Origin: Candidatus Krumholzibacteriota bacterium
Lineage (GTDB): Bacteria > Krumholzibacteriota > Krumholzibacteriia > LZORAL124-64-63
DNA length: 64,000 nucleotides
NCBI GenBank assembly: GCA_022711765.1
Contig: JAKLEB010000003.1
Location: 124,001 to 188,000, forward strand
Direction of reading: 5' to 3'
A program made the translations under genes and the position numbers. The notes beneath the pieces are model-generated. The model was not told the DNA's origin. It was given only the letters and a program-made list of their open reading frames with translations, and did not search any database. Below, one piece after another: positions 1,712 to 24,780 of the stretch; position 1 is the stretch's first letter, and every line of letters begins with the position of its first letter.

Positions 1712-1725
1712 TGCGGAGGACCTAG

Positions 1726-5137: not shown

Positions 5138-5356
5138 CCACGCCAGCCAGGCCGGCAGGACCGAGTGGTGGGCGAAGAAGCCGAAGCCGCCGATGGCGTC
5201 GTGGGGGCGCTTGAGCTTCAGGAAGAACGGGGCGCCGGGCTTGACGGCGTGGAAGCCGCGGCCGCCGGACGGCTGCCAGAAGTTCACCTCGTCGGCGCGG
5301 CGGTTGCGGAGGAAGGTGAACCACGAGTAGTCGGTGTTGGCGACCCAGCCCATCAT
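5138..5356 (-). pseudogene. HNH restriction-type endonuclease, N-terminal fragment cut by IS insertion
   Basis: From the ATG at 5356 the frame gives about 73 residues that match the N-terminal module of HNH-type putative restriction endonucleases: WVANTDYSWFTFLRNRRADEVNFWQPSGG, then a GAPFFLKLKRP...IGGFGFFAHHSVLPAWLAW segment. It then runs into the IS21 left end at 5137, which adds five foreign codons and a stop. The catalytic HNH part is absent. The start overlaps the stop of the upstream WYL fragment (ATGA), so the two were probably translated together as a regulator-endonuclease pair. Confidence 0.75.
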
Positions 5357-5490
5357 GGCTCGTACTGCCTCGCGACTTCGGACGGGCGCCGCTCGATCCG
5401 CTCGTCGAGCTGGGCGGGTTCGACGACCCGGCAGCGACCCGCGAACCCGATCAGCCAGGTCATCGTCTCGTCGAGGCTCACGGCATCGAA
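5353..5490 (-). pseudogene. C-terminal fragment of a WYL-domain transcription regulator
   Basis: About 45 residues ending at 5353 (VSLDETMTWLIGFAGRCRVVEPAQL then a RxxEVARQYE tail) match the C-terminal WCX portion of WYL-domain regulators, which often accompany defence genes. No HTH or WYL core is left. A 25-codon frame starting at 5555 (MPRKRTPDTAMLTPQEMDTL) precedes it in another frame and may be a scrap of the same region. The TGA stop overlaps the ATG of the HNH fragment. Confidence 0.5.
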
Positions 5491-5558
5491 CTCCAGAGCG
5501 TGTCCATCTCCTGCGGCGTCAGCATGGCCGTGTCGGGGGTGCGCTTGCGTGGCATGAC

Positions 5559-6183
5559 TCACCCGCTTCCGGACTCGAGTTCCGCTGCGAGGAAGTGTTC
5601 GATCTCCGCCTTGTCCGGGAGTTCGAGCTGGTACCTCGACACGAACAGATTGTTGTCCATGCCGGCGAGGGCGTACTCCACCAGGGGTCCGTCCTTCTGC
5701 GTACAGAGCAGCAGGCCCACGGGCGAATTGTCCCGTGCGCTCGTAGAGCAGGCTACCGATCTGCCGCTTGAGTTCACGCACCGACCAGACGCCCTTGATG
5801 CATTCGATTTCGTAGAACCGGCGCTTGAGAGGATCTTCGACGCCCAGCAGTTCGACCAGGTGCGAGTACGAGAGCTTCTCGAGCAGCGTCTCGCCGGGCA
5901 ACGTCAATTGTGGCGGCACTGTCCCCACAATCCTATCTGTCACTTTGATATCGACTTGCAAGCCGTCCCGTAATTGTGGCGACAGCGTCTCCACGATCTG
6001 CGGATAAGTCAGATAGAACGCGCGATATCGGTAGAGTTCGCGACGACCCGTGCCGGGAATCGCTAGCCTCGCCAGCGAAGATGCGAGCTCATCCATGAAT
6101 CGCTCGCCGTACCCGGCTCGGTCCTGCCCCGCGCGCTCGAACTCCTCGATATAGAATCCGTTCGATTGATGCCCCCGTGGCAT
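5559..6183 (-). pseudogene. YhcG/DUF1016-family nuclease, internally deleted and frameshifted
   Basis: From 6183 the frame matches the N-terminal DUF1016 helical domain (AGYGERFMDELA, YLTYPQIVETLSP, SYSHLVELLGVEDPLKRRFYEIECIKGVWSVRELKRQIGSLLYERTG). The frame then shifts near 5730, and a second frame ending at 5559 resumes at the family's extreme C-terminus (PVGLLLCTQKDGPLVEYALAGMDNNLFVSRYQLELPDKAEIEHFLAAEL). The roughly 120-residue PDDEXK nuclease segment that normally lies between these parts is missing, and the first ~30 residues also seem lost. It is therefore not functional as a nuclease. Family members are associated with type I restriction loci. Confidence 0.8.
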
Positions 6184-8715: not shown

Positions 8716-9921
8716 TCACGTCGCCACCCAGCGAGACACCGGCTCCAGGAGAAACTCCTCCACGGCGATGCCGTCGCCACCGACGATGAGCGTCCGCGCC
8801 GGCTCGAACGCAGCCGAGAATGCCGCGAGACCGGAAAGGACCTCCCGCTTGCGGCCGCTCTTGACCTCGATCGCCGTGACCGCGCGGCCGACCCGGACCA
8901 CGAAGTCCACCTCGCGGCTGCCCTCGCGCCAGTAGAAGACCTCGCACGCGCCGCCCGCGGCCGCGCCCGCGAGGTGGGCGCCGACGGCCGACTCCACCAG
9001 CCGCCCCCAGCGCTCGCGGTCGGCCGGCACGTTTGCGAACCCGGCGCCTTCCTGGGCACTCAGCAACGCGGTGTTGAGCACCTGGAGCTTGGGGCTCGAT
9101 GCCCGCCGCCGCACGGCGCTTCCCGCGTACTTCGGCAGTCCCGTCAACAGCCCGGCCGCCCCGAGCAGGTCCAGGTAGTGCGCGAGAGTGGTCGTGTTGC
9201 CCGCGTCGTGGAGCTGGCCGAGCATCTTGGTGTACGAGAGCACCTGGCCCGAGTACTGGCAACCCAGCTCGAGGAGTCGCCGCAGCAGTGCTGGCTTATC
9301 GACCCGGGTGAGCAGCAGCACGTCGCGGGCGATCGTGGTCTCGACGAGCGCGTCGAGGATGTAGCGCCGCCAGCGCTCCGGCTCGGCCGCGAGCGGCGCC
9401 GCGCCCGGATAACCGCCGAAGACCACGTACTGCTCGAGAGAGAAACCGAAGGCGGCCCGCATCTCGGCGAGTGCCCAGTGCGGCAGGTGGACGACCTCGA
9501 AACGCCCGGCGAGGCTCTCGGTGAGACCCTGCTGGACGAGCAGCGGCGCCGAGCCCAGCAGCACCACCTTCAGCTCGCGCCCTGCCCGCGAATCCTCGTC
9601 CCACAGCCGTTTCACCGACTCGGCCCAGCCGACGGCCTTCTGCACCTCGTCCAGCACCAGGAGCGCGCCCGCCGGCCCGGCTTCGAGGCGCGCCGCCTCC
9701 CACTGCATGGCGACCCAGTCGGGGCCCCGGAGCGTCGGCTCGTCGGCGCTGGCAAACCGCACCGGTACGCCGGCTGACTGGGCGACCTGCTGCACCAGCG
9801 TCGTCTTGCCGACCTGCCGCGCGCCGGTCACGACCTGGATGAACCGGCGCGGCTCGGCGAGGCGCCGGGCCAGCTCGGCGGCCTGCGGGCGGCGGAAGGG
9901 TCTTGCAACACTACTCATCAT
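8716..9921 (-). CDS. DUF4143 AAA+ ATPase
   Basis: 401 residues. N-terminal AAA domain with Walker A GARQVGKTT near residue 34 and Walker B ALLVLDEVQK near 86, then the DUF4143 C-terminal PDDEXK-like region (SREVDFVVRVGRAVTAIEVKSG). Such ATPases are common in genomes rich in mobile DNA; their physiological role is poorly known. Two adjacent ATGs (9921, 9918) can start it. The promoter and two operators sit directly on the start (see 9910-9957), and the predicted transcript begins at the ATG without a leader. Convergent with nothing; the next minus-strand gene is 108 bp downstream. Confidence 0.9.
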   Translation of the reverse strand: MMSSVARPFRRPQAAELARRLAEPRRFIQVVTGARQVGKTTLVQQVAQSAGVPVRFASADEPTLRGPDWVAMQWEAARLEAGPAGALLVLDEVQKAVGWAESVKRLWDEDSRAGRELKVVLLGSAPLLVQQGLTESLAGRFEVVHLPHWALAEMRAAFGFSLEQYVVFGGYPGAAPLAAEPERWRRYILDALVETTIARDVLLLTRVDKPALLRRLLELGCQYSGQVLSYTKMLGQLHDAGNTTTLAHYLDLLGAAGLLTGLPKYAGSAVRRRASSPKLQVLNTALLSAQEGAGFANVPADRERWGRLVESAVGAHLAGAAAGGACEVFYWREGSREVDFVVRVGRAVTAIEVKSGRKREVLSGLAAFSAAFEPARTLIVGGDGIAVEEFLLEPVSRWVAT

Positions 9922-10937: not shown

Positions 10938-12650
10938 TCACTTCACGACCAGCAGCTTCCGCGCCGCCTGCGCCTCCCCCGCGCTCAGCCGGCAGACGTA
11001 CACGCCGCTGGGTAGCGACCGGTCGTCGAACCGCGCCTCGTGGGACCCCGCCGGCTGCTCGCTCGCGACCAGCGTCGCGATCTTCCGCCCGCGCAGGTCG
11101 AAGACCGCGAGGGTGACGAAGGCGTCGCGGGGAACCTCGTAGCGGATCGTAGTGCTCGCATTGAACGGGTTCGGGTCGGCGCCCAGGAGGACGAGCGAGG
11201 CCGGGTGCGTCTCGTCGGCCGCGGTGACGCCCAGGGTCTTGCGGCCGTAGTAGACGTCCTGTTCGCCGTTGAACGTGGCCGCCCAGGCCAGGCGGAAGCC
11301 CGCGTCGTCGGAGACCATGTGGAAGTAGTCGCCCAGCTTGTCCTGGTTCGGATAGCCGAGCTGCGGGTCGAACGCGTCCGACAGCCGCTCGTTCGTGGAC
11401 CAGGTCGCGCCGCCGTCCTCGGAATACGAGTAGTAGAGGGACGACAGGTAGGTGCCCGGATGGTCGCGCGTGTCGAGCCAGACGGCGTCGATTCGCCCGG
11501 AGGGGCTGGTCGACATCGTCCCGAACCACTGCCAGGCGCTGCCCGGGTCGTCGTTCACGCGGACCGGCGGGCTCCAGGTGACCCCGGCATCGGTACTGCG
11601 GGAGACCATCACGTCCAGCGGGTCGGACCCCGGCGGGTCGACCGAGCAGAGCACGCAGACCGTGTGGCCCTGGGGACTCGCGCTGGGAAGGGTGGCGATG
11701 CCCGCCTGGCCGAGCAGACCCCCGGGATTGGGGCCGCCGAACGATGCGATTGAGCCGCCGAGGTTGACGATGGTCGACGAATCCCAGACGATCGCCTGCC
11801 CGGCATAGCGGGCGTTCAACGAGCGCGCCACGACGAAGTCGTCATTGTACGCTCCGACCACGTAGAGCGTGCCGCTCGGGTTGAAGCCGCTGCCGGGCAC
11901 CACGGCGAGCGAGCCCCAGTACGGCTCGTCGGGGATCGTGATGCAGGGTTGGTACGAGTCGCCGCCGTCCGTGGACCGCGTGAAGAAGCCGGGGTAGCAG
12001 CTGCTGTAGAAGCTGGTCCAGTAGGCGTAGATGTGACCGTCGCCGGCGCCGCCGGTCTTGTCGATCACCATCCACTGCTTGTCGCCGCCGTGGGCCGACG
12101 TGCCGGCGTCCCAGGGGATGCCGGCCGAGGGGGAACGGAAGACGTCGCAGAGGTAGTCGTCGCCCTCGACCGTGAGGCTGTTGTAGTAGACCTGTCCCGC
12201 CGAGTCCGTATCCAGCACGGGATCGGAGCGGAAGACGCCCGGCTCGATCACGCCGGGGAACGTCCAGGTCTGGCCGCCGTCGGTGGTGTAGGCGTAGCCC
12301 GCCTGGCGGAAATTGCTCGCGACGGTGTCGAACTGCCGCCAGCCGATCACCATCTTATTCGGATTCGTGGGGTCGACGGCGATGGACGGCTCGTTGGCGG
12401 CGTCGCCCAGGATGTTCTGGCCGAGGGCGTCGACGTTGACCTGGACCACAGAGAACGAGTCCCGAGAGAAGCGGGTGGCGGGGGACCGCGGGTGGTCGGC
12501 GCGGGGGGAGGGGAGGTAGGGGTCGTCGGGGAGTTCGTTCTGGGACCTGGGCGGGTGCGGGGAGCGGTCCTGCGCGGGGGCGGGGAGGGAGAGCAAGGGG
12601 AGAAGGGCGCAGGGGAGCGTGAGGCGGCGGAGTCTTTGTAAACTGTTCAT
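10938..12650 (-). CDS. Secreted BNR/Asp-box (sialidase-fold) protein with FlgD-type C-terminal domain
   Basis: 570 residues from ATG 12650. A signal peptide (MNSLQRLRRLTLPCALLPLLSLPAPAQ) and a proline-rich low-complexity stretch precede a six-bladed-propeller-like domain. At least four Asp-box motifs are visible (TTDGGQTW, STDGGDSY, STDAGVTW, SEDGGATW). The C-terminal ~80 residues are a FlgD-like tail (DPNPFNASTTIRYEVP, VFDLRGRKIATLVASEQPAGSHEARF, PSGVYVCRL). Asp boxes mark the sialidase fold, but I do not see the catalytic arginine triad, so enzyme activity is not claimed. Extracellular or surface-attached. The frame extends to 12677, but the ATG at 12650 begins the signal peptide. Confidence 0.8.
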   Translation of the reverse strand: MNSLQRLRRLTLPCALLPLLSLPAPAQDRSPHPPRSQNELPDDPYLPSPRADHPRSPATRFSRDSFSVVQVNVDALGQNILGDAANEPSIAVDPTNPNKMVIGWRQFDTVASNFRQAGYAYTTDGGQTWTFPGVIEPGVFRSDPVLDTDSAGQVYYNSLTVEGDDYLCDVFRSPSAGIPWDAGTSAHGGDKQWMVIDKTGGAGDGHIYAYWTSFYSSCYPGFFTRSTDGGDSYQPCITIPDEPYWGSLAVVPGSGFNPSGTLYVVGAYNDDFVVARSLNARYAGQAIVWDSSTIVNLGGSIASFGGPNPGGLLGQAGIATLPSASPQGHTVCVLCSVDPPGSDPLDVMVSRSTDAGVTWSPPVRVNDDPGSAWQWFGTMSTSPSGRIDAVWLDTRDHPGTYLSSLYYSYSEDGGATWSTNERLSDAFDPQLGYPNQDKLGDYFHMVSDDAGFRLAWAATFNGEQDVYYGRKTLGVTAADETHPASLVLLGADPNPFNASTTIRYEVPRDAFVTLAVFDLRGRKIATLVASEQPAGSHEARFDDRSLPSGVYVCRLSAGEAQAARKLLVVK

Positions 12651-12801
12651 GCTACGATTTGACCATAATTCGGGCAAAAAGGCAATGGATTGTACCAGAA
12701 CTCATGGGTCCACTTCTTGCCGAGCATGAGACCTCGCGCGGAACGAGAGGCCTACACCATTACCGAGTGTCGGCGCGACTCACGAATCACCTGAGTTTCA
12801 T

Positions 12802-14265
12802 CTAAACCATTGCCTCCAAAGCGCCAAGCACGTCGACCAAGGCCTCTGTGTCCTGCCGACAGTATACGCGCAGGTCCTCGAGCACCTTCGATTTGACCGA
12901 AACGTCAACTCCTCCGAATACTGCTCGCTGATACTCCCGCATCGCCGCTCCACCGTCCCCGATCGCTAGATCCGCGTAGGTCTTCCCCACGATCGCCGGC
13001 AATACATCCTTCAGTGAGCAGCTACCTCGCTGCTCAGGGTGGTAGTACCAGAACTTGGAGAACGGGACGAGAAGGTCGACGAAGCGTGCCTCCAGACCAA
13101 GAAGGAAGTCTGCTTCATCAGGGAGGAAGGCCGCGAGGTCCCGCAAGACGCCTTTCTCGAAAACCGCGTTGAATGCGACGATCTGACCGTCCGGACCGAT
13201 CACTTTGAGCGCGGAAACCAGTGTCCGCCTCGGATCCTCGGCTTTGTCCGCCAGTAACTCGTGGTGAACGGGTTCGGCACCGCGGCCGGCAATGACGTGC
13301 AACGAGAACTGGAAAGGTACCTGTTGAAACGGTCGAGTCCCGTCGAACACGGGAATCGCCGGATTCATGGTCTCGAAATCGAGGCAGTACAGTGGGTAGA
13401 CGAGGCCTGACAACCAATCTTGGATCGCAGCCACCGAGATCTGCGGTAGCCCGGAGCGGACCGCCACCTGCTGGACAAGCTGCGTGTCGTTGAGATCGCC
13501 CTCTGGTACGTCCGCAAGGCTCAAGACACCATTCTCGATCAACTTGAACGCCTTCGCCTTCCTAATCCGGTACAAGCGCAGGACGTTCTGGTCTGGAAGG
13601 AACGACGAGCAGGACTTCCACAGATCGCAGTCGTACGGCTGAGAGCAGTGCAACCCAATTGGCGTTGCGGGTCGATCGCCCGAGATCGCTTCCACCATTG
13701 TTCTGACCCGTGCCGGAACCGCAGATTGGAATTCTCGGACTCGAGTCGTGATGTCCTCGGCGTGAAACAGGCCTTCTGGATCGATCCCTCCATACCGAAC
13801 GTAGGTGTTGTCTATATGCATCAAGAAGAGGCGGTCCAACTGGACCCCGGACCCTTCAAGTATGTATGCCTGGAACGCGACGTCCTCGATATGCTCGTCC
13901 TTGACGGCTGTCGTACTCTTGACCTCGTACAGATCCCATGAGCCTTCAGAGGAAGGCACCAGAACGTCGACTCGGCAATAGCAGCCATCCCACAGGTAGC
14001 TCGCCTCGAAGATCGGGTTCCGCTCGCGCATCAACTCGCGAGTGGCATCCACGGTCGACTGTAGATCCTTGCTCCATGGGACTTCGACGCCGTGGGGATA
14101 GAGCGCCTTGGCGAGGTCGCCGACCGCATGTCCCGTGTCGAAGATGGCCTGCTTGGCCGCATCAGGTTCCGGGACCGCCTCTCGATCGTTGTAGTGGGTC
14201 CACAGGAGCTTCGGGCATTGGAGTCCGGCGAGATACTCGGACTTCGAGATCACGGTCTTCGCCAT
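12802..14265 (-). CDS. Cas4-like PD-(D/E)XK / DUF2779 nuclease
   Basis: 487 residues from ATG 14265. The N-terminal half is Cas4/RecB-nuclease-like: ISKSEYLAGLQCPKLLW with Cys17, a RVDVLVP...WDLYEVKST catalytic stretch (D...ExK), and CSQPYDCDLWKSC near residue 205. Those three cysteines and Cys17 can bind a 4Fe-4S cluster. The C-terminal half is DUF2779, whose YCLDFETMNPAIP motif resembles the first acidic motif of DEDD/RNase H-fold exonucleases (VAFNAVFEKGVL and DTEALV follow). Predicted to be a nuclease with two active centres. It lies 19 nt after the PDDEXK gene and is the last gene of a three-gene unit. The start at 14265 is chosen because the family motif begins there. Confidence 0.8.
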   Translation of the reverse strand: MAKTVISKSEYLAGLQCPKLLWTHYNDREAVPEPDAAKQAIFDTGHAVGDLAKALYPHGVEVPWSKDLQSTVDATRELMRERNPIFEASYLWDGCYCRVDVLVPSSEGSWDLYEVKSTTAVKDEHIEDVAFQAYILEGSGVQLDRLFLMHIDNTYVRYGGIDPEGLFHAEDITTRVREFQSAVPARVRTMVEAISGDRPATPIGLHCSQPYDCDLWKSCSSFLPDQNVLRLYRIRKAKAFKLIENGVLSLADVPEGDLNDTQLVQQVAVRSGLPQISVAAIQDWLSGLVYPLYCLDFETMNPAIPVFDGTRPFQQVPFQFSLHVIAGRGAEPVHHELLADKAEDPRRTLVSALKVIGPDGQIVAFNAVFEKGVLRDLAAFLPDEADFLLGLEARFVDLLVPFSKFWYYHPEQRGSCSLKDVLPAIVGKTYADLAIGDGGAAMREYQRAVFGGVDVSVKSKVLEDLRVYCRQDTEALVDVLGALEAMV

Positions 14266-14284
14266 GGCAGTCCCCAGTCGGTGG

Positions 14285-15463
14285 CTAGCTGCGAATATCC
14301 CCACTTAAAGCCGGCTCGAGGTGACGCTGCAGCTCGGTAGCCATTTCAAGTGCAGCGGCAAAGTTCACTCGATAGCTCACTTCGGCTTCGTCCCAGGATC
14401 GTCCCCAAAGCAGAGGCTCACCGCTGTGCTTCTGCCGCGAGAGCGAGCAGTACGCCGTACCGGAGCCAGTCTTCGGGCGGTTGAAGCGCCAGCTGCTCGC
14501 GATCTCGGGCCTCTTGGCGAATTCCTCAACCGCGGGGATGAGGTTGCTCTCCATGTATCTCCTCATTGCCGGACTTACGGGCTTCTTCTCCGATTGGCTT
14601 TTCCAGCCCGATTCCAGCTGGACCTTGACCGTGCGGCCCTGGAACTGAATTCCCCAGTCGAACTCGTGCGCTCCCGCCAGGACGGTCTTGAGAACCTTCG
14701 GCTGCTTTATATCGAGGAGAGCCGTTCCCCGCGTCTCGCCGATGATGACGAGTGCGTCGTCAGGGGCGATTCTTCGTGCAATCTCGGTTACGTAGAGTCG
14801 TTGCAGCACCGTTTCGAGCTGCATGTTCCGAACGTACTGGCAGTCATCGTCTGCGAGCGGTGACATCTCCAACTTGTCGGCAAGCGATCGGCCTCCGTCT
14901 TGAAATACGTTCGCGAACCGGTCAGGGGCCGCACAGAACGCCTCTACGATGTTAGTGAGCCGAGCTAGCGACCTGACGTAAGCCGTGACGATCGTGGAGT
15001 CTTCCGTCCCGTCGTCAGGCGAATCCAGCGCCTCCGACAATCGCCTGACGAAATCGCGATAAGAGAGTTCGATCCAACCATCGGCCCTGGGTTGTTCCCG
15101 GACGAGGGTAAGCAAGACTTTCACAGGTGTCCGGCCGCCGAGAAGCTCCGTGCCTATCGGATTCGCCACAATCGCGTTGTATCGTTCCAGTTGATCGGAT
15201 CCCTGAGACGACTTGATCTTATTCTCGATGAAGATCACCGACGTTTCAGTCTCCAAGACGACATCGATATGATTCCATTCCGTGTGCGAGCGAATCGGAC
15301 CGCGCAATGCGCTTGCCGAGGATCGGCTCAGCGTCGCAAGTAGCTGGTGCTTTCGTTCAAGCGAAATCGCCTCGCAATCCTGAGAGAAGATCCATGCGAT
15401 CATCTGCGAATGCATGCGTTCCATCCTCGCAATCGATACAGCTTCGAAGAACGACGTCTTCAT
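14285..15463 (-). CDS. PD-(D/E)XK superfamily nuclease (PDDEXK_4-like)
   Basis: 392 residues from ATG 15463, preceded by GAGGGGAGCATTCG. The N-terminal part FFEAVSIARMERMHSQMIAW and the core HIDVVLE...SVIFIENKIKSSQ...QLERY match PD-(D/E)XK nucleases of the PDDEXK_4 type, with Asp in HIDVV and Glu-Asn-Lys in IENK as the likely metal and catalytic residues. The C-terminal ~200 residues have no family I can name. It lies 51 nt after the tandem AAA+ gene and 19 nt before the DUF2779 nuclease, same strand, so probably co-transcribed. Family members occur in defence contexts. Confidence 0.75.
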   Translation of the reverse strand: MKTSFFEAVSIARMERMHSQMIAWIFSQDCEAISLERKHQLLATLSRSSASALRGPIRSHTEWNHIDVVLETETSVIFIENKIKSSQGSDQLERYNAIVANPIGTELLGGRTPVKVLLTLVREQPRADGWIELSYRDFVRRLSEALDSPDDGTEDSTIVTAYVRSLARLTNIVEAFCAAPDRFANVFQDGGRSLADKLEMSPLADDDCQYVRNMQLETVLQRLYVTEIARRIAPDDALVIIGETRGTALLDIKQPKVLKTVLAGAHEFDWGIQFQGRTVKVQLESGWKSQSEKKPVSPAMRRYMESNLIPAVEEFAKRPEIASSWRFNRPKTGSGTAYCSLSRQKHSGEPLLWGRSWDEAEVSYRVNFAAALEMATELQRHLEPALSGDIRS

Positions 15464-15514
15464 CGAATGCTCCCCTCGATCGAGGTTGTGAACTCGCAAC
15501 TCTCCAGATCCTGG

Positions 15515-17683
15515 CTAGAAAAATCCAACTCGCTGGATCGCATGCGTCGAACGATCCCGAACGTCGTCCAGAAGCGCGTCAACGAGTTCGCTCAACTCAA
15601 GCTCTCCGTCCACAAAAACGGCATGGTCCCTGACCCTTACCAGGTCAGCGACGGTGACGCCCGCGAGGGAACGCAGCCGATTCCACTCGCGCGCGCGCTG
15701 ACCGACTGGACCAAGCGGCCTCCAGACAACCTTCGCCGATTCTACCACCTGCTCTGGTTCAAGAGGATCGAACCGCACCACCCCGACAAAACGCCTCACG
15801 GCAGCAGGGTCGATATCCTCCCACCGGTTGGTCGTACCGAACAGGGTCGTCGCGGGCTGGTCCATCTGGGTCAACATCTCGTTCACCAGCGAAACCTCCC
15901 ACGATCTCTGTGCCTGGTTCCGCGAATGGAGCAGAGTGTCTATCTCGTCGATCACGAGGACGCTGTCGCCCATTCGTGCCTGATCGAACGCTTCCGCGAT
16001 CCGGCGCTCCGTGCCGCCGACATAGGGGTCAAGCAGGTCGCTCGCCCGCACGTCCACGATCGGCCGGCCTGAGAATTCGCCGAGGTGGCGAGCCAAGACG
16101 CTCTTTCCGGTCCCGGGGGATCCGTGGAACAATAGATTGAACGGCGGATTGTTCTGCTTGAATTCCGTCCGGCCTCCGCGTACGACGTACCGCGCCAACA
16201 TGGATTCAAGCTTATCCAAAGGGACGCTCGTGTTCAAGCCACCACGGATCAGAGAGACTTTCTTCGGCTCCGGCCTGGGCGATCTACCCGTGGTCAGCTC
16301 GACGCTCGAGCACAGGGCCTGACGGAATCGTTCCTTACAGCTATTCCGGTCGCTGCCGGCGATCGCGGCAGCGCGCGCGGCCGTGGCATATAGCGCTGGG
16401 CTGACGGCATACTCCTTCGCGATATCTCGAACTGCACAGTGGTCGAAGTGCCGCTTGATCCTGAAGCGGCGCAGGACTCGGTCGAGTGCATGTTCGCGCG
16501 CCTGCCGTCCGGGAACCGGCACGCGAAGGCTGTAGCTGAAGCGTCGTTTCACCGCTGGCTCGATTTCGTCGGTCTCGTTGGCGACCCAAATGCAGCGGAT
16601 CCCGGGACGTTCCAGAATATCGTTGAGCCAGGCCTTGTCCGCGGCGTCTCCACTCGCGATCCAGGATTGGCCCGTTCCGAGGACATGATCGGCCTCATCG
16701 AACAGAAGTATCCGACCAGGAACTCCGGTAGATACGTTCCAGCACGCTTCGACGGCTGCTCGCCGAGTACCTGGAGAAGCACCGGCTCGGCCGAGAACCT
16801 CCAGTCCGTCCGCGCCCACCATATGGACAAGTCCTCGCGCCAGTGTCGTCTTACCGGTACCGGGAGGGCCGTAGAGCAGAACATGCACCGGTCGCTCACT
16901 TCGCGAACCAAGCAGACGCGCCAGCATCTCGATTTCACGATCCGCGACGCCGAGAAGCCGTGGATCGATATCGGGCTTGGGAACCGGCCCCCACAGATCC
17001 TGGAGGCGCACGGAGACCGACGGATCGGCGAACAGCTGGATGTACTCGGAGCTGATCGTCAACCACGCACCGCGCACGTCGAGGATTCCCATCTGGCGGA
17101 GCTTGCCGTTGAGGACGGCACTCATCTGCTCGTGGGTCATGGCGAGGGCTGTCAGCAGATACCCACGGCCGGACGGTCGATCGCATTCCAGGTGCCGATC
17201 GAAGTACTCCTCGACTCTCGGCCAGGAGGACATGCAGGACAAGAAGTAGGCGAGATGGTATTCGTCGTTCGACAACCCAAATGTCTTACCGACGGTATGG
17301 AGAGTGCTGACCGCACTTGCGGGTCCTCCGTCCGTGATCACGGAATCCAGCCGGGCGATGATCCGTTCAACTACGTACGCGTGAGACGACGACCCCGGCA
17401 GGCCGATCGCTGCCATGACCGCAGAGTAGCCATCTACCGCAATCGGGTGCGGGCCGTCGCACTGTGCGCAGTCTTGGTCCGGCAAGCCCAGTTCACTGCA
17501 GAACGACGCCGACGGTAGACCTAGCACCCAGGCCGCAAACTCGACCGATTCGCGGTCCAGGCATCCGTAGCGGCAGATAATCCGCCGAATCCAGAGGGCT
17601 GCTTGGGACTGCAGATAGACGTCGCTCGCCCCCGGGACGGGTAGACCCGTGGCGCTCCGATTTCGCGATCCGTGAAAGCCCAT
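15515..17683 (-). CDS. Tandem AAA+ ATPase (Cdc48-like fused ATPase)
   Basis: 722 residues from ATG 17683. An N-terminal helical regulatory region (about 1-240; FGLSNDEYHLAYFLSC) is followed by two AAA+ modules. Module 1 has Walker A GPPGTGKT at 272-279 and Walker B ILLFDEAD ending at 332. Module 2 has GSPGTGKS at 521-528 and VLVIDEID ending at 582; the first is followed by a VANETDEI sensor stretch and the second by FGTTNR and an arginine-rich VRRFVG segment. Such proteins remodel or unfold protein or nucleoprotein substrates. It heads a unit with two nucleases, so it may be the energy-using or sensing part of a defence or DNA-processing complex. A TTG at 17701 is an alternative start; the ATG after GGAGATTGGGGGTGGT is preferred. 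Confidence 0.8.
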   Translation of the reverse strand: MGFHGSRNRSATGLPVPGASDVYLQSQAALWIRRIICRYGCLDRESVEFAAWVLGLPSASFCSELGLPDQDCAQCDGPHPIAVDGYSAVMAAIGLPGSSSHAYVVERIIARLDSVITDGGPASAVSTLHTVGKTFGLSNDEYHLAYFLSCMSSWPRVEEYFDRHLECDRPSGRGYLLTALAMTHEQMSAVLNGKLRQMGILDVRGAWLTISSEYIQLFADPSVSVRLQDLWGPVPKPDIDPRLLGVADREIEMLARLLGSRSERPVHVLLYGPPGTGKTTLARGLVHMVGADGLEVLGRAGASPGTRRAAVEACWNVSTGVPGRILLFDEADHVLGTGQSWIASGDAADKAWLNDILERPGIRCIWVANETDEIEPAVKRRFSYSLRVPVPGRQAREHALDRVLRRFRIKRHFDHCAVRDIAKEYAVSPALYATAARAAAIAGSDRNSCKERFRQALCSSVELTTGRSPRPEPKKVSLIRGGLNTSVPLDKLESMLARYVVRGGRTEFKQNNPPFNLLFHGSPGTGKSVLARHLGEFSGRPIVDVRASDLLDPYVGGTERRIAEAFDQARMGDSVLVIDEIDTLLHSRNQAQRSWEVSLVNEMLTQMDQPATTLFGTTNRWEDIDPAAVRRFVGVVRFDPLEPEQVVESAKVVWRPLGPVGQRAREWNRLRSLAGVTVADLVRVRDHAVFVDGELELSELVDALLDDVRDRSTHAIQRVGFF

Positions 17684-18081
17684 ACCACCCCCAATCTCCA
17701 AAGAAGGAGGGCAGAATGCCGGATACGGATCGACTTGTAAACGATATCGCCGAAGATTCTGCAGAAAGTCACACGAGTCGATCGAGCATCGACGCGGCGG
17801 TGTTGCAATTCAGGCTAATCGGCCGACGACATGAAGCGGGGGGCACCTCTCGCGGTCGTGTGCATTTCGGGTGTGAAGGCCGGTCGAAAAGTGCGGCGGG
17901 TAGCGGTCGAGAAGTGCGGCACCTGCATTCGGCGCTGATGCTACCGGCGGGAGCCCGCTAGCCGCGTCGGCGACCATTGGCTGGCGTGATCACCGGGGGC
18001 GGAGTCCACCTTAAATCGCCCGCCTAACTGTCCAAGGAATGGGGGCCACTTCTGCCGCCAAAGGCTCCCCAGACCCCGAAG
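17684..18081. other. Intergenic region with IS-end-like repeats
   Basis: About 400 bases between the AAA+ gene and the recombinase-associated fragment. It holds the direct repeats at 17881-17920. An 81-codon frame at 17716-17961 follows a good AAGGAGG site, but it spans the repeats and has no family signature. The remainder looks like decayed mobile DNA. Confidence 0.5.
17881..17920. repeat. Two 17-bp direct repeats, IS-terminus-like
   Basis: CGGTCGAAAAGTGCGGC (17881-17897) and CGGTCGAGAAGTGCGGC (17904-17920) differ at one base and lie 23 bp apart. The GGTCGAAAAGTG core resembles the multiple subterminal repeats of IS21-family ends. No transposase gene remains beside them, so this is probably an orphan end. 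Confidence 0.5.
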
Positions 18082-18402
18082 GTGGTCGAGCTTCTCAGGA
18101 CGGCCCAGGAGTGGCGGCGGCAGCTCAACGCCGGTGAAGTCGAAAACCAAGCCGCCATCGCCCGCAGAGAAGGGATCACGCGCGCCCGGGTGACCCAGAT
18201 CATGGCACTCATTCGCCTTGCCCCCGAGATCCAGAACCACGTCCTGTCCCTGCCCGCAACGGCCCACCGATCGGTGTTCACAGAGCGGGCTTTGAGGCCG
18301 ATCGCCCAGTTGGACTGCAGCTCAGACCAAAGGACGCGTTTCGACTCCTTGTGCCGTCAGGCAAATGACCCCCGCCACAATCGTGCCGGCTTCGCATCAT
18401 GA
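18082..18402 (+). CDS. Recombinase-cassette-associated HTH protein (orphan, possibly 5'-truncated)
   Basis: 106 residues from GTG 18082. VVELLRTAQEWRRQLNAGEV, QAAIARREGITRARVTQIMALIRLAPEIQ and SVFTERALRPIAQL match the short HTH proteins that commonly follow a serine recombinase and DUF2924 gene in Planctomycetes-like and other genomes. The upstream frame stays open to 18028 and codes for a proline-rich stretch (LLPPKAPQTPK) like the family's N-terminus, but no ATG is present, so the start is probably lost. No recombinase is found next to it. It is convergent with the DUF499 gene, 13 bp away, and probably marks the edge of an integration event. Confidence 0.55.
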   Translation: MVELLRTAQEWRRQLNAGEVENQAAIARREGITRARVTQIMALIRLAPEIQNHVLSLPATAHRSVFTERALRPIAQLDCSSDQRTRFDSLCRQANDPRHNRAGFAS

Positions 18403-18415
18403 CTGCCGAAGCCTA

Positions 18416-21196
18416 TCAGCCCTCATCATCCTTGATGGTCTCGACGTCCTCCGACATTCCCAACTCCCTAAGGGAGACCCGCACTTCCTCGATCTTGGCT
18501 CTTGAGACGCCGCCGGCGGGCTTAACCTGCACCCCGAGAGTCAACGTAAGCCCACTGGCCGCCGCGAAAGGAGCGAGGACCTTGGTATAGAAGTTCATCC
18601 ACTTCTGCGGCGTCAGGTTGCCACTCCAACGGAAACCGGCCGCCACGTCGGGCGTACCTTCGTCCTTAGGGTCTCTAGGAGAATGAACTGTAGAGGCACC
18701 ATCAGACGGCTTACCAGCCGGATCGGAAGGGGCAGTCGGTGTAGTCGGACTCGGCAAGCCCGCCTGACCCGCCTTTTGGCGAACCTCGTAAGCGTCTGCA
18801 TGTTCCTTCGTGATGATAAACACATCGTCCGCGAGTTCAAGTTCACTCTCCAGCATCGCTTTCCGGAATAGGAATGGGTCGTATGATCCGCTCTGATCCC
18901 TGACTACGTACGCCAGCATTCCGGCCTCGACTCCACGGGAGATTGTATGCTTCACCGCATCCGGGTTCACGAGCCGGGGAAACCGCGGTGATGCGAAGAA
19001 CGCATCGCGAACAGCCTTGGTACTCCATTCGGGCAGCGCAGGGGGCCAATTGCGGACGAGGAAGTTCGGACTGACACCGTCGACGACGAGGTCCTCCTGC
19101 TTCAAACGGCCGAGGATGAGCGCGACCAACGAGTCCGCGGCGCTGGAGTGGACGAGGCCGAGATCGATTTTACGCAGGGCGTTCTTCTCGTCGAGGAGAA
19201 AGACGTTCTTATAAGTTCGCCAGACCGATTCCCGGAGGTCGCGTTTGGCCCGCTTCAGATTCTCTTCGAGCTGGTGGTGCTGCGACTCGTCGATGCGCAG
19301 CGTCTCCGTGTCGGCGTCGATGTCCTCCCAGGCGAGTACCTTCCTAGCCTCCTCGGAGAGCAAGGTGCCGTCCTCGGCCACGCACCAGATGAGCGCACTC
19401 TTGTAGGTCCTCGACGATGAGCCGTGCTCCTTTGCCATCGTCTCCATTAGCCGCGCCGTGGCCGTTTCTCCGGCCTCGTTCTCGGGGGCGAGAACGACGA
19501 GCGTGAGGGCTGCGCGGTCGGGCACCTGGTTCGTGCGCTCCGGGAAGAGGACACGTTCAACGCCCTTGCCAGCCCCGAACACCCTTTCGATCTCGGCGCG
19601 TACCCGATCGCGGATCGCGTTCGCTGGAACGCTCGCCCGCCGGTCGGCAAGGAGTTTGTTAAGGTTCGGCTGAAAGCTGAAGCGGAAGCGGTTCTTCTCG
19701 GCCGAAAGGAAGTAGCAGCTGTCGGACAGAGCCTCAAGACTCTGCTCGACGTTGCCAACGTCGAGGTCGGGCTCGGCCACGGCGAGGCGAACTTCCGGCA
19801 GCGTCGCCTCGCCCCGATGCTGGCCGCCATTGGATTCGAAGAAAATCGTGGTTGCCACCTTCCGATGGAGGCGCGCCTTCTTGACCTCGGCCGTCGCCTC
19901 CTTATCCAACCGCACCGCATGCGCGTGCTCCTTGCCCGCGATGTCGGTGGTCACCGCGCCCTCGAGACGCGACTCGCCGAGTTGCTCGAAAACCGCAGCG
20001 CGGAACGTCGAATCGGCGAGGGGCGCCGTACCAAGGGTAATCAGTGGGTCCTTGTGCGCGCCCTTGAAGCCCTCGACGTATGCGTGGGAGACCCACAGGG
20101 CCAGGAGGCGCAGGACGCCGCGGGTCTGCTGGAAGCGCGGGAGTGCCTGCCATTTCCGCTCGAACACCGAGAGGACCGACGGGTGGAAGGGGTAGCTTGA
20201 CTCGAGTGCCTCACGCGCGTTGTCGACGGGGAACCAGCTCGGGAGCTGGTGGCGGTGCGATTCCATCCACTCTGCGTACTCGGTGACAGTCTTCGAAGCG
20301 TCAACCGGCAGGCCGTGCCACTCGAAGAGACGTCGGCGGATGATCTCGGAGGTCTCGGCCTCGGCCGACATGATCACGGCCTTGCCGAGACGATCGAGGA
20401 GCTTCTTCAGGCGCTCGTAGTCGGACTGGTCCTCGGCCGTCATCTCCAGCTCAGACGCGGGGATTGAGACGGCGAGCACCACGTTGTCCCGCGACCGCGA
20501 GACCTCGGATAGGTTGTGGAGGAAACTATAGAGCTGGCTCGCGAGCCCGCTCTTACGGCTGCGGCTGACGTAGTTCATCAGCTCGTCGAGCAGGATAAGC
20601 ACGGGGCGATCGGCGGGAAGGATCCGCGAGACGACGTCGCCTCCGGGCGCCGTGAGCGTCTTCTCGTGCTCGGCGACGATGCCCAGGCCGTCGGCGCCGA
20701 GGAGTTGCCAGGCAATCTCGCCCCAGGGGGTCTTGCGGATGGGCGTGCCATCGGCGCCGCCGCGGCCGGAGATCGAGTCAAACTCTGTACCAACAAATAC
20801 CGCCGTGGCAGCGCGCGGAATTTCAGCCACACCGGCCTTATCGAGGAGGGAGCTCACTCCCTTCCACTCCGCAGTCTCCGGGTGGCCCTGTGCGAGGTGG
20901 TAGAGTAGCGTCAGCGCGTGCGTCTTGCCGCCGCCAAACTGCGTGGTCATGTTGAAGACCGCGGAGGTCTCGACCTTCACCCCTGAGAGCCGCCGGATCA
21001 CCTCGGCAGCGAGGCCCAAGAGGTTCTTTGTCAGGTAGGTTCGCTCGAAGAAGTCGGCGGGGTTCTGGTAGACGGCAGGTGCCCGCCCGTCGCGCACCTG
21101 GTCGAGGTGGACGGCGAACTCAGACGCATCGAGCGGTCGACCCTCGCGGAGGTCCTCGCGCGGTGTGATGACCTTGTACCAGGGCTTCAGAGCCAT
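18416..21196 (-). CDS. DUF499 family ATPase of a predicted modification-based defence system
   Basis: 926 residues from ATG 21196, with AAGGAGAA eight nt upstream. AAA-type NTPase: Walker A TTQFGGGKTHAL at 84-95 and Walker B VLILLDELMNYVS at 199-211, followed by SIPASELE. An internal YKNVFLLDEKNALRKIDLGL segment and a ~130-residue variable tail complete it. DUF499 ATPases are recurrently encoded next to DUF1156 methylases and SNF2 helicases in defence islands. Here it is the last gene of that operon, 18 nt after the methylase stop. Likely cytoplasmic; it may couple ATP hydrolysis to target control or restriction. No nuclease motif is visible. Confidence 0.85.
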   Translation of the reverse strand: MALKPWYKVITPREDLREGRPLDASEFAVHLDQVRDGRAPAVYQNPADFFERTYLTKNLLGLAAEVIRRLSGVKVETSAVFNMTTQFGGGKTHALTLLYHLAQGHPETAEWKGVSSLLDKAGVAEIPRAATAVFVGTEFDSISGRGGADGTPIRKTPWGEIAWQLLGADGLGIVAEHEKTLTAPGGDVVSRILPADRPVLILLDELMNYVSRSRKSGLASQLYSFLHNLSEVSRSRDNVVLAVSIPASELEMTAEDQSDYERLKKLLDRLGKAVIMSAEAETSEIIRRRLFEWHGLPVDASKTVTEYAEWMESHRHQLPSWFPVDNAREALESSYPFHPSVLSVFERKWQALPRFQQTRGVLRLLALWVSHAYVEGFKGAHKDPLITLGTAPLADSTFRAAVFEQLGESRLEGAVTTDIAGKEHAHAVRLDKEATAEVKKARLHRKVATTIFFESNGGQHRGEATLPEVRLAVAEPDLDVGNVEQSLEALSDSCYFLSAEKNRFRFSFQPNLNKLLADRRASVPANAIRDRVRAEIERVFGAGKGVERVLFPERTNQVPDRAALTLVVLAPENEAGETATARLMETMAKEHGSSSRTYKSALIWCVAEDGTLLSEEARKVLAWEDIDADTETLRIDESQHHQLEENLKRAKRDLRESVWRTYKNVFLLDEKNALRKIDLGLVHSSAADSLVALILGRLKQEDLVVDGVSPNFLVRNWPPALPEWSTKAVRDAFFASPRFPRLVNPDAVKHTISRGVEAGMLAYVVRDQSGSYDPFLFRKAMLESELELADDVFIITKEHADAYEVRQKAGQAGLPSPTTPTAPSDPAGKPSDGASTVHSPRDPKDEGTPDVAAGFRWSGNLTPQKWMNFYTKVLAPFAAASGLTLTLGVQVKPAGGVSRAKIEEVRVSLRELGMSEDVETIKDDEG

Positions 21197-21214
21197 GTCG
21201 GGTTCTCCTTGTGG

Positions 21215-24172
21215 TTATCCAAGGCCCAGTCCCTTCTTGCGGGCGAGCACGCCGTCCACCCAACGCTTCTCGTCGGTCCCACTCGGATAGAGCGCCGAAA
21301 GCGACTGCGCGAGCTTCCAGAACGTAGCGGCACGGCCGACACCCTCCTCGACGAGGAAGCGCTTAAGCGCCTCGCCGCGGCCAGCGGCAAACAGAACCAT
21401 CGCCTGGTGGACGCGGTCGAGCGTTGTCTCCCCGAGCGGCGGAAGGCCGACGTCGCCCCAGCCCGCGTCCTTCTCTGCCGCCTCCAGCTCCTCGAACAGC
21501 GTGAGCTGCTTCACCTGCTTGGCGCGGCGCGCCGGCGTCCGCTGGGCCTGGTCCTTGCCGAAGAGGTGCCGGGCCCGCTCGGCCACCGAGAAGAGGCGCG
21601 CCTGGTCGCCCTTGATCTCGACGACGCGCCCCAGGTCCTCGAGGTGGGCGCCGAGACCTTGAGCGATCTTGCGTGCGGCATCAAACTCCAGGGAGAATCC
21701 GGCGCCAGATTTGGCCTTGCCGGTGCTCTCATCCTCGTCGTCCTCGCCGGCGGACTCGCCCACGTCATCGTCGCTTGCGCTGGCCGCACCGTTGCTGTTC
21801 GCGCTCGTGGATAGAGTCCAGAGCCACATGGCGGTCAGGCGCGCGTCCTCCTCAAGATCTGTGGCGTCTGCGTCTTGGAATATCATCAAGAGTGCCTCGC
21901 GAGCAACCGCAGCCCAGACCTGCTCTAGGTACTCCCGAAGTTCGACCTTCTCCCCCGAGGCCTTTTCGACGCGAGAGTAGCGGGAAAAGATCTCGAGCGC
22001 CGGGCCAATACAGGCAAAGATCGCATCGGCGCCGACGACCCCCTCCCTAGCGAGCCGCGGCATCCAGCCATGGATTCGCTCGGGCAGTTCTCCCAACACG
22101 GTCCGCCAATCGCCTATGACGTTCTCGTATAGCGAGCCATCTGGGTTCTCGCGGGGTCGGCAAACGAGGTGTACGGAGGAAGCAAGAGCGGCGGAATTCA
22201 TGGCCCGCAAACGAGAACCCATTTCAGTGTCGATTGGCCAGGAAGCTGTCATGGTCCATCCAGCGTTAACCATGGCCTGGAGCTGAGCTTCCCAGCCGCC
22301 AGTGGACTTATGGGCAAAGACAACGAGCCCAATACCAGAAGGCGCGAGTACCCGCCGACCTTCCGCCATTGCTCGCTGCATCGTAGCCTCGAATTTCCCC
22401 GCCGTCAGTCCCTTGACTTCATCAACAATGCACTCCTCCAACTTCGGCGTGGTCTCTTCGCCAAATAGACCCGGATGTAGATCGCCGAGCGTGCGCCGCA
22501 ACCATACAAAGAAAAAGTCAGAGAGATCTGAGTAAGGCACTGCGTCGTAGTACGGCGGATCAGTGACGAACGCGTGGGCTGCATCATCAGGTAGCGGGTG
22601 CGCCGTTGCAGAAGCCAGTTGCGTATGGCCGGGATACGCTGCGTAGCCAGCGCTACGTAGGGCGATCATTACGCACTCAAGATTATGCAACCAATCACCA
22701 ACGGAGTCACCAAACGGGTCTGCCTCCGCGAAATCCCACACCATCGGAATTGCTTGTCTAGTGAAGCCATGCTGCAACTTCGGTCCATGTGGATTCCAAG
22801 TGCATAGCGAGTTTGAGTGGTCAGCCTGTCGGTCCACCACGCAGGCAAGGCACGAGGCTACTGCTTCGGCTAATCCAGCGTCACACTCTTTTAGACACCG
22901 TTCATGCGCCTCACGAACCAGCCGAACAAACGTAACGAGCATCAGTGACTGACGAGGGGCGAATAGGTCACCAAATAGGTCCATTCCATAATTTCTTTGA
23001 GAGAACGCTCTCCCAGCGCCGCTTCCACCACCAAATGGCGTGGGCTCGTTTGGGACCAAACTGAATCGACCCTCATGCCTCGCTTCTCGCTGAGCCAATT
23101 CATGGACTGCTGCTTGAACCGATCCCCGGTCCCTCTCCTCCGGTAACCGAAAAAAACGCCCCTGCTGCCTCGGCCGGGTCGTCACCACGCATAGGAGCTT
23201 GGCGTCCGCCGCTCCACCACGGCGTGCCTTGAGTTGCGTTCGAACCGATGACACTGGTGTGGTGTAACCGCAGCACGGGCATGTCATTGCCCCCCGTCGT
23301 ACTGTTCCTTGGTTGGTCTCTGCGGGCTTCGGATTCTCAACTATTTCAACGTCGACTCCGCTGCCATTCTTCCGAGGCACGAGCCGCATACCAATTCCCC
23401 GCCCACGCTTCTTCGACAACCATAACGAACGCAGGAGTGGCACCTCGGCTCCACAACCCGGGCCCTCGCAGCGGATCGTTCTTGCCCAAAGGTACGCGAT
23501 CGGATTGGCGCCATCTTCGTCTTTTGGATAATAACGGCCGAGTTCCGCTTCCGCCTGATTCTTTACCCACCCGCCCCAGCGTAAGACCTCCTCCGCCAAC
23601 CGCCCGCCGTACTTCGGGATGTATTCCAACACAACCTTGTTGAGTAATAGCGCTACCGGATTGAGATCCGATGCGAAGGCGTCGCCCCCGATCCTCAGCG
23701 TCTCCAGCGGTATGGCTCCACCCCCCGCAAATGGATCAATGACCAGAGGTCTTGTCCCCGGCGCTCCGCCGAGCGATTCATGCGCCGCCTGGGTTAGGCG
23801 CCGCGCTACCTCGAGAAAGTCTTTGCTAGTAGCGTTGTCCCAGTCTGCGAATTCGGCGATAAAGGCGAGCAGCGCTGCTCGCACTTCTTCAGGCGTTGAC
23901 CAATCGCGCATCGCTCCCCCACGGCGATCGCGAAAGTCCCGCATCGCCGCAGCGGCTACTTCACGGAATCGATCTGGGCAAAGTTCATCAGCAGGGTCCG
24001 GCCAGAGTGCGGCGCAGAGCACGGCCCGGCAGGCCGCCAATGGCCGCCGGGCCCACCAAATGTGGAGCGTCGAGATGTGTCCATTCCGTATCGACTTTTC
24101 TCGCCGCGCATGCGAAGAGATCTCCCTTATCGGTAGATCCACCTCGATAAGTCGGTGGCAGTAATCACTCAT
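21215..24172 (-). CDS. DUF1156-containing adenine-type DNA methylase with Zn-ribbon
   Basis: 985 residues from ATG 24172, which follows GGAGGGG. The DUF1156 N-terminus (RLIEVDLPIREISSHARREKS, HISTLHIWWARRPLAACRAV) precedes the SAM-binding motif I (PLVIDPFAGGGAIPLETLRIG) and the N6-adenine catalytic motif IV DPPYYDAVPYSDLSDFF near residue 535. Between them are paired cysteines (CEGPGC and CPCCG), a Zn-ribbon. Expected to methylate adenine in host DNA so that the system spares self. It overlaps the TOPRIM gene by 8 bp and is followed 18 nt later by DUF499. Its middle part is visibly less GC-rich than the chromosome around it. A start at 24184 lacks a ribosome site. Confidence 0.88.
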   Translation of the reverse strand: MSDYCHRLIEVDLPIREISSHARREKSIRNGHISTLHIWWARRPLAACRAVLCAALWPDPADELCPDRFREVAAAAMRDFRDRRGGAMRDWSTPEEVRAALLAFIAEFADWDNATSKDFLEVARRLTQAAHESLGGAPGTRPLVIDPFAGGGAIPLETLRIGGDAFASDLNPVALLLNKVVLEYIPKYGGRLAEEVLRWGGWVKNQAEAELGRYYPKDEDGANPIAYLWARTIRCEGPGCGAEVPLLRSLWLSKKRGRGIGMRLVPRKNGSGVDVEIVENPKPAETNQGTVRRGAMTCPCCGYTTPVSSVRTQLKARRGGAADAKLLCVVTTRPRQQGRFFRLPEERDRGSVQAAVHELAQREARHEGRFSLVPNEPTPFGGGSGAGRAFSQRNYGMDLFGDLFAPRQSLMLVTFVRLVREAHERCLKECDAGLAEAVASCLACVVDRQADHSNSLCTWNPHGPKLQHGFTRQAIPMVWDFAEADPFGDSVGDWLHNLECVMIALRSAGYAAYPGHTQLASATAHPLPDDAAHAFVTDPPYYDAVPYSDLSDFFFVWLRRTLGDLHPGLFGEETTPKLEECIVDEVKGLTAGKFEATMQRAMAEGRRVLAPSGIGLVVFAHKSTGGWEAQLQAMVNAGWTMTASWPIDTEMGSRLRAMNSAALASSVHLVCRPRENPDGSLYENVIGDWRTVLGELPERIHGWMPRLAREGVVGADAIFACIGPALEIFSRYSRVEKASGEKVELREYLEQVWAAVAREALLMIFQDADATDLEEDARLTAMWLWTLSTSANSNGAASASDDDVGESAGEDDEDESTGKAKSGAGFSLEFDAARKIAQGLGAHLEDLGRVVEIKGDQARLFSVAERARHLFGKDQAQRTPARRAKQVKQLTLFEELEAAEKDAGWGDVGLPPLGETTLDRVHQAMVLFAAGRGEALKRFLVEEGVGRAATFWKLAQSLSALYPSGTDEKRWVDGVLARKKGLGLG

Positions 24173-24776
24173 CGACCCCTCCATCTGTATTGGCAAGGAG
24201 TCGTTGTAGGCACGCTAAAGTGCGGCGAAGACTGTCGCACCGCCCAGTTGCTACTTCGGGTCTCCAATGTCTCGAGGCGAACTCGATGATGCGTGAGGCA
24301 TATGCCCGGCCCGCAGCACGTCCACTTCCAGGGCGAGGAACCATATCATCCCGGATGGCCATCTTTCGTGAATGCCGCGCGAGATCGACCATGGTTCTCT
24401 TGGGGTCATCTAGCGCTTCCGGATCCACGGGGACCCTGGTGCGCGGGACACCGAGAAACAACGAAATATTCTCGCGATCCGCCAAAAGCCATGTTTCTAC
24501 TTCACGAACCGCAACACGAAAACACATTAATGGAGCAGGATTGGGAAGCCATTCGGCCGTCAGCGTTGGCGCACATTCTCCGTCACGGTCGAGATCAACG
24601 AGGACAAACCACGGGCTGAATCGGGCAGCATTGTTATACCCGCTAACCCGTTGCAGAAGAGCGGCTTTCCCGGCTTTACCGTATACGCCCCCGATTGTGG
24701 CTCCAAGGTGTTCGACGATCTGACGCACCACGGCTTCATCAGTAATTCCTTCCACTGCTATGTCGACACAGACCAT
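24165..24776 (-). CDS. TOPRIM-like protein (DUF4276-type) paired with an OLD-like ATPase
   Basis: 203 residues from ATG 24776. The N-terminal part reads VDIAVEGITDEAVVRQIVEHLG, then a glycine-rich GGVYGKAGKAAL loop and FVLVDLDRDGEC, then CFRVAVREVETWLLAD. The Glu in VEG and the DxD in VDLDRD are the acidic residues expected in TOPRIM/DUF4276-type nuclease-like domains. It begins four nt after the stop of the ATPase gene and overlaps the methylase start. The pair looks like a split OLD-type system (ATPase plus TOPRIM), as in PARIS-like modules, but the family is not identical to AriB as far as I can tell. An alternative TTG start lies at 24794. Confidence 0.7.
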   Translation of the reverse strand: MVCVDIAVEGITDEAVVRQIVEHLGATIGGVYGKAGKAALLQRVSGYNNAARFSPWFVLVDLDRDGECAPTLTAEWLPNPAPLMCFRVAVREVETWLLADRENISLFLGVPRTRVPVDPEALDDPKRTMVDLARHSRKMAIRDDMVPRPGSGRAAGRAYASRIIEFASRHWRPEVATGRCDSLRRTLACLQRLLANTDGGVDE

Positions 24777-24780
24777 CAGG

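Follow-up and report, generated by a model that had tools for sequence, protein, structure and literature searches.

The present study concerns a three-gene unit on the minus strand of a 64,000-nucleotide (nt) stretch (hereafter the window) from Candidatus Krumholzibacteriota bacterium (assembly GCA_022711765.1, contig JAKLEB010000003.1, positions 124,001 to 188,000), which encodes a tandem AAA+ ATPase, a PD-(D/E)XK nuclease and a DUF2779 protein. Our main finding is that the object recurring in other bacteria is the tandem ATPase combined with one or another nuclease, not the exact triad. We read the three genes, tentatively, as a single locus of a modular system, made up of an ATPase and nucleases, that would be aimed at invading DNA. 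The members of the unit are as follows (window coordinates):

15515-17683, minus strand: tandem AAA+ ATPase gene, 722 amino acids (aa), ATG at 17683
14285-15463, minus strand: PD-(D/E)XK nuclease gene (PDDEXK_4, similar to PADLOC PDC-S26), 392 aa, ATG at 15463
12802-14265, minus strand: DUF2779 gene, 487 aa, ATG at 14265

The original prediction, made from the sequence alone, had described three genes on one strand, 51 and 19 nt apart, and both the frames and the exact spacing agree: 51 nt separate the ATPase stop from the PDDEXK_4 gene, and 19 nt separate the PDDEXK_4 stop from the DUF2779 gene. All three open reading frames (ORFs) are intact, catalytic motifs included, and a G-rich stretch resembling a ribosome-binding site lies just upstream of each ATG start. 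Promoter and terminator scans returned no more signals than shuffled sequence.

The first protein does contain the two complete AAA+ modules ascribed to it. Pfam AAA matches it in two stretches (E 3.9e-40), and its architecture comprises a family-specific N-terminal region (residues ~1-250) followed by modules at ~255-460 and ~510-720; for the first 250 residues, no Pfam family appears among the matches listed. Across 19 relatives aligned over almost the full length, Walker A (G272-K278 in module 1, G521-K527 in module 2), Walker B (D329/E330 and D579/E580) and an RR pair (R380/R381 and R630/R631) are conserved in each module. Judged from these motifs, both rings are predicted to be competent for ATP. 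The closest solved structures by sequence are NVL2, an archaeal VCP-like ATPase and CDC48 (PDB), and the protein shares with the CDC48/VCP/NVL double-ring ATPases the two modules, each with Walker A and B. It differs from them, however, in scoring 88.9 bits against the TIGR01243 cut-off of 802.65, in its N-terminal region and in being linked to nucleases.

The middle protein passes the gathering cut-off of Pfam PDDEXK_4 (PF14281; 41.2 versus 22.3 bits, E 2.2e-10), and D67, E80, K82 and Y95 (numbered, here and below, from the ATG) are invariant in six family members; this match and the conserved D...ExK residues support the nuclease core proposed for the second gene. The PADLOC candidate PDC-S26 matches part of the protein (E 2e-21), only residues 72-180, which correspond to positions 100-207 of the 400 in that model. 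An AlphaFold model, built on an alignment of only four divergent rows, reached a predicted local distance difference test (pLDDT) score of 33.7.

The third protein exceeds the gathering cut-off of Pfam DUF2779 (PF11074; 130.3 versus 23.3 bits, E 6.5e-38) and is matched weakly by PADLOC Cas4 (E 5.7e-4). In its N-terminal Cas4-like PD-(D/E)XK domain, cysteines 17, 207, 213 and 219 are conserved along with D100, E114, K116 and Q132, and in its C-terminal RNase H-fold domain D296, E298, E370, Y468 and D472 are conserved, with D296, E298, E370 and D472 invariant. A Foldseek search with the AlphaFold model (pLDDT 94.8) returned Cas4, EXO5 and AdnAB as best matches, followed by the DEDD exonucleases 3'hExo and RNase T. 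The conserved residues, the confident model and these fold matches all favour the proposed division into a Cas4-like Fe-S half and a DEDD-like half, and the protein is thus modelled as a Cas4-like Fe-S nuclease and a DEDD-type 3'-5' exonuclease in one chain. A survey of the RNase H fold has placed DUF2779 among presumed 3'-5' exonucleases carrying a PD-(D/E)XK-like DUF83 domain, and has noted COG2251 proteins with tandem AAA domains (PMC3985635). The COG2251/TM0106 RecB-like nucleases indeed share the architecture of a DUF83 (Cas4-like) domain and an RNase H-fold exonuclease, but in the window the exonuclease is of a distinct family, DUF2779, and the tandem ATPase, of the CDC48-like class, is encoded by a gene of its own. 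A role in CRISPR (clustered regularly interspaced short palindromic repeats) adaptation was rejected, despite the Cas4 fold with Fe-S-type cysteines, because no repeat array was found in the window between 9 and 31 kb.

Linkage of the ATPase to DUF2779 was surveyed within the window's own phylum, in a sample of 80 genomes; the source assembly itself measures 3.96 Mb in four contigs and is 94% complete. The ATPase occurs in 8 of these genomes, DUF2779 in 21 and both in 5, and in all five the two genes are neighbours. In G057, G058, G059 and G060 the ATPase, a WYL regulator, a calcineurin-like phosphoesterase and DUF2779 lie within a few kb of each other in two different arrangements; in G058 the DUF2779 gene begins at a contig end, with the remaining genes on another contig. 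At four loci of the phylum (L015-L018), the phosphoesterase and the WYL regulator flank the ATPase and DUF2779 or lie between them. G045 and G046 carry a WYL gene, the ATPase, a 115-aa protein and RmuC; at L013 (1273-5109) and L014 (9159-12908) the tandem ATPase is likewise followed by a 115-aa protein, which has no Pfam match, and then by RmuC, with a divergent WYL regulator. Within the phylum, the PDDEXK_4 gene was found in the window's genome and in none of the other 79, and its absence from the remainder of the phylum led us to reject the triad as a fixed operon.

Outside the phylum, the association reappears in two other lineages. Among Gammaproteobacteria (n = 369), the ATPase and DUF2779 are each present in 24 genomes and together in 7, against 1.6 expected (Fisher p 3e-4), and among Campylobacteria (n = 298) they are present in 29 and 68 genomes and together in 20, against 6.6 expected (p 2e-8); these co-occurrence tests ignore species kinship, and 83 ATPase ORFs form 61 clusters at 60% identity. 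Where both genes are present, they lie 20 kb or less apart in 6/7 gammaproteobacterial and 18/20 Campylobacteria genomes. PDDEXK_4, detected in 17 of the 369 gammaproteobacterial genomes, accompanies the ATPase in 4 versus 1.1 expected (p 0.019), and in three genomes the two share a contig at a distance of ~6 kb or less.

At some loci the arrangement is tighter than these distances require. Same-strand adjacency of the ATPase and DUF2779, at 260 nt or less, was observed on a Rhodoferax plasmid (L058, order AAA-DUF2779-WYL) and at L089 (G289), L108 (G316), L199 (G466), L207 (G569) and L216 (G543). A Sphingobium plasmid (L059) contains the gene set of the window in the order DUF2779-WYL-AAA-small-PDDEXK_4, an Azospirillum plasmid carries both AAA and DUF2779, and the plasmid relatives in Novosphingobium and Croceicoccus combine AAA with PDDEXK_4, in the latter case with an overlap of 4 nt and a weak Pfam match. 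Full triads within ~10 kb are found in the window, at L059, at the gammaproteobacterial L094 and at the Campylobacteria loci L198, L216 and L218, the ATPases of L216 and L218 being nearly identical. L198 repeats the window order on one strand (ATPase, PcfJ-like protein, PDDEXK_4, 147-aa protein, DUF2779), and its ATPase has a WYL regulator in divergent orientation. The expectation that the three families would co-occur elsewhere therefore holds in one respect and fails in another: they are linked in unrelated genomes, but the exact three-gene unit is not a conserved object.

Several details of these loci were recorded alongside. The PcfJ-like protein of L198 (PF14284, 7218-8564) is what separates the ATPase from PDDEXK_4. 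Immediately downstream of the ATPase of L212 there is a tandem pair of PDDEXK_4-like genes (288-3091). On the Rhodoferax plasmid, an AAA ATPase and a DUF2357 protein (L058 1-3976), an McrBC-like pair by annotation, lie ~4 kb upstream of the tandem ATPase. Additionally, a cassette conserved within ~8 kb of the ATPase in Campylobacteria (L200, L202, L203, L204 and L208) comprises 195-aa and 298-aa proteins without a Pfam match, a peptidyl-arginine-deiminase-like protein and an HNH protein, mostly with Sir2 too.

Some of the evidence weighs against a single working system. DUF2779 occurs without the ATPase in 16/21 genomes of the phylum and in 48/68 genomes of Campylobacteria; the complete triad is rare, with six loci of which two are near-copies; neighbours of the RmuC, Y-family polymerase and UvrD types would fit DNA repair too; and in Campylobacteria that possess the ATPase, the common defence gene GmrSD is found within 20 kb of DUF2779 in 14/16 genomes, as tightly as the ATPase itself. 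This last figure comes from a control for island effects, in which GmrSD was followed in 52 DUF2779-bearing genomes at a threshold of 20 kb. The possibility it addresses is that independent single-gene defence elements pile up in the same islands, so that the short gaps would reflect chance insertion instead of a working complex. PDDEXK_4 proteins are already listed as the stand-alone candidate PDC-S26, DUF2779 stands alone in most genomes, and all relatives in the phylum are without the middle nuclease. Because GmrSD is as tightly linked in Campylobacteria, defence-island clustering contributes to the linkage there; in Campylobacteria without the ATPase, GmrSD and DUF2779 are 20 kb or less apart in 3/6 genomes, and for this lineage either an island effect or GmrSD acting as an additional partner could explain the linkage. 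In Gammaproteobacteria, by contrast, GmrSD lies within that distance of DUF2779 in 1/8 genomes versus 6/7 for the ATPase (p 0.009), and the ATPase-DUF2779 link is more specific than island clustering. A pure island effect, which could account for Campylobacteria and not for Gammaproteobacteria, was rejected on this control. Furthermore, the genome-level co-occurrence, the same-strand adjacency in distant lineages and the window order in L198 exceed the usual island pattern. We therefore regard chance accumulation of independent elements as unlikely, albeit deserving of serious attention.

A neighbour census took 41 dereplicated ATPases of the gammaproteobacterial and Campylobacteria surveys and covered the 140 genes lying no more than three positions away from them. 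By Pfam, the commonest of these neighbours are GmrSD_N (9), WYL (9), PDDEXK_4 (5), DUF2779 (4), Sir2 (3) and ADP-ribosylglycohydrolase (2), in agreement with the PADLOC counts (WYL 9, GmrSD-type 7, PDC-S26 4). GmrSD type IV restriction is thus the commonest neighbour, level with WYL, but it represents a different family and is not in the window unit. Genes of type IV restriction (GmrSD), BREX-2, Hma, HEPN and Sir2 all figure among the neighbours of the ATPase. Frequent turnover of the ATPase's partners follows from a quick tree of 73 ATPases, along which linkage to DUF2779 requires a minimum of 17 changes and linkage to PDDEXK_4 a minimum of 11. A broader reading, which we hold with more reserve than the reading of the window locus itself, is that the window represents a two-nuclease version of an anti-invader system that would be widespread and as yet without a name; a single tandem-AAA engine, mostly WYL-controlled, would work in it with interchangeable nucleases (DUF2779, PDDEXK_4, GmrSD, RmuC and RecB/UvrD types).

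Some of the same neighbours suggest a DNA-repair or plasmid-maintenance module, in which the ATPase would strip proteins off broken or stalled DNA and the nucleases would process the ends. The ATPase adjoins RmuC in G045 and G046, Y-family polymerases lie near it in Desulfosarcina and Methylomonas and SbcCD-like genes in Croceicoccus, and it also occurs near pairs of PD-(D/E)XK and UvrD genes; the best fold matches of DUF2779 (Cas4, EXO5, AdnAB) are themselves end-processing nucleases. The distribution of the ATPase is nevertheless patchy (24/369 and 29/298 genomes) and partly plasmid-borne, and its commonest neighbours are GmrSD, WYL and PDDEXK_4, which makes a repair function improbable in our estimation.

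A slightly fainter prospect is that the unit belongs to the ADP-ribose conflict islands, the ARG-centric systems predicted by Iyer et al. 2022 (PMC9503650); the ATPase would then unfold or chaperone ADP-ribosylated proteins, and the nucleases would be accessory effectors. Relatives adjoin WYL regulators, a calcineurin-like phosphoesterase, a 5'-nucleotidase, dual-specificity phosphatases, Sir2 and ADP-ribosylglycohydrolases. Most such neighbours are components listed for these systems, among which are WYL regulators, phosphatases and variable effectors of the restriction-endonuclease fold, and WYL, phosphatase and restriction-endonuclease-fold genes surround many ATPase relatives. However, homologues of the relatives' ADP-ribosylglycohydrolase and phosphoesterase genes were not found among the window ORFs, where there is only a WCX fragment, and the system description in PMC9503650 makes no mention of a tandem AAA ATPase or of DUF2779.

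For the modular ATPase-plus-nuclease system that we favour, a role in defence appears most likely. Its constant part would be the CDC48/VCP-like double-ring AAA+ ATPase and its variable part one or more nucleases, in the window version a PDDEXK_4 enzyme and a DUF2779 protein bearing two nucleases. The original prediction had the ATPase drive or sense and the nucleases degrade, with an anti-phage purpose, and such a division of labour may be pictured as follows. The products would form a complex in which the ATPase, as a hexamer, acts on a foreign nucleoprotein, presumably of a mobile element, by recognising or remodelling it, and gates the PDDEXK_4 nuclease; the latter would make the first cut, whereupon the DUF2779 enzyme would degrade from the ends. 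Silencing of the module before infection or damage would, in most relatives, fall to a repressor of the WYL family. WYL regulators from BREX and CBASS have been studied (PMC9122589, PMC9122588), and by analogy a WYL regulator probably controls expression of the ATPase module in relatives; near the window copy, an intact one is not present.

In line with the original prediction, which knew of no named defence system matching the set, no named system or family covering it was found in Pfam, PADLOC-DB 2.0 or NCBIfam, and the open literature on sets of WYL, AAA and nuclease genes, on PDDEXK_4 and on PDC-S26 does not describe it, a search by which subscription-only or later systems could be missed. 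The nearest published precedent is the Type III-A CoCoNuTs, whose conflict operons place CDC48/SpoVK-like tandem ATPases next to a protein of the PD-(D/E)XK fold (PMC11090510). Those ATPases keep Walker motifs in the C-terminal module only and have C-terminal extensions (PMC11090510), whereas both modules are intact in the window ATPase; moreover, neither the unit nor the adjacent operon includes the McrB-type GTPase and McrC of CoCoNuT/McrBC systems. IetA of IetAS is the best match of the ATPase in both PADLOC (E 2e-30) and NCBIfam (E 5e-27), but the match is limited to an AAA module and reaches 94.9 bits against a cut-off of 510, and in place of the subtilisin-like protease partner the ATPase has PDDEXK_4, DUF2779 and Hma genes next to it.

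With regard to its origin, the unit looks horizontally acquired, because its GC content at third codon positions (0.69-0.72) is lower than in the flanking chromosomal genes 8716-9921 (0.90) and 10938-12677 (0.92), and because the ATPase was not found in the other three genomes of the window's genus. A phage origin was rejected: no close PDDEXK_4 homologue was found in phages or plasmids, and a scan of viral contigs for the ATPase gave partial AAA matches only. Beside the unit lies the defence operon mentioned in the original prediction, now identified by PADLOC and Pfam matches as a complete Hma operon with an embedded HEC-01A/HEC-01B pair, which we treat as context rather than as a claimed member of the unit:

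17702-18415: gap between the unit and the Hma operon, in which no WYL-family regulator was found
18082-18402, plus strand: ORF in the gap with a weak ParB-type helix-turn-helix match
18416-29393, minus strand: Hma operon
18416-21196, minus strand: HmaC, in the Hma operon
21215-24196, minus strand: HmaB, in the Hma operon
24165-24794, minus strand: HEC-01B, embedded in the Hma operon
24781-25944, minus strand: HEC-01A, embedded in the Hma operon
25941-29393, minus strand: HmaA, in the Hma operon
5353-6183, minus strand: chimeric ORF, by domain matches a DUF1016_N fused to WCX, the domain with which WYL regulators end C-terminally

The genes required for Hma (HmaA, HmaB and HmaC) are supplied by this neighbouring operon and not by the three-gene unit. 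That the unit is part of the Hma system was rejected, as tblastn found no Hma homologues near the ATPase relatives at the compared loci, bar one weak helicase match. The chimeric ORF at 5353-6183 resembles recombination debris and is possibly what remains of the WYL regulator found beside the ATPase in relatives; the window itself retains only this WCX fragment, and another contig carries an intact WCX-bearing ORF. An AAA_14/DUF4143 ATPase (8716-9921) is situated in the flank downstream of the unit, and a ClpB/ClpA-type chaperone ATPase (30091-32865) just past the Hma operon.

DUF2779 proteins are widespread and without a known role, and their name is seldom mentioned in the open-access literature. 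Tying them to one CDC48-like ATPase across several bacterial phyla provides a concrete candidate partner, and the loci of Rhodoferax, Sphingobium and Campylobacteria make up a shortlist of clone-sized targets. If the reading is true, it would reveal a design for defence or genome surveillance that re-uses one motor with many nucleases, and a bacterial double-ring AAA+ machine that would work on nucleic-acid targets.

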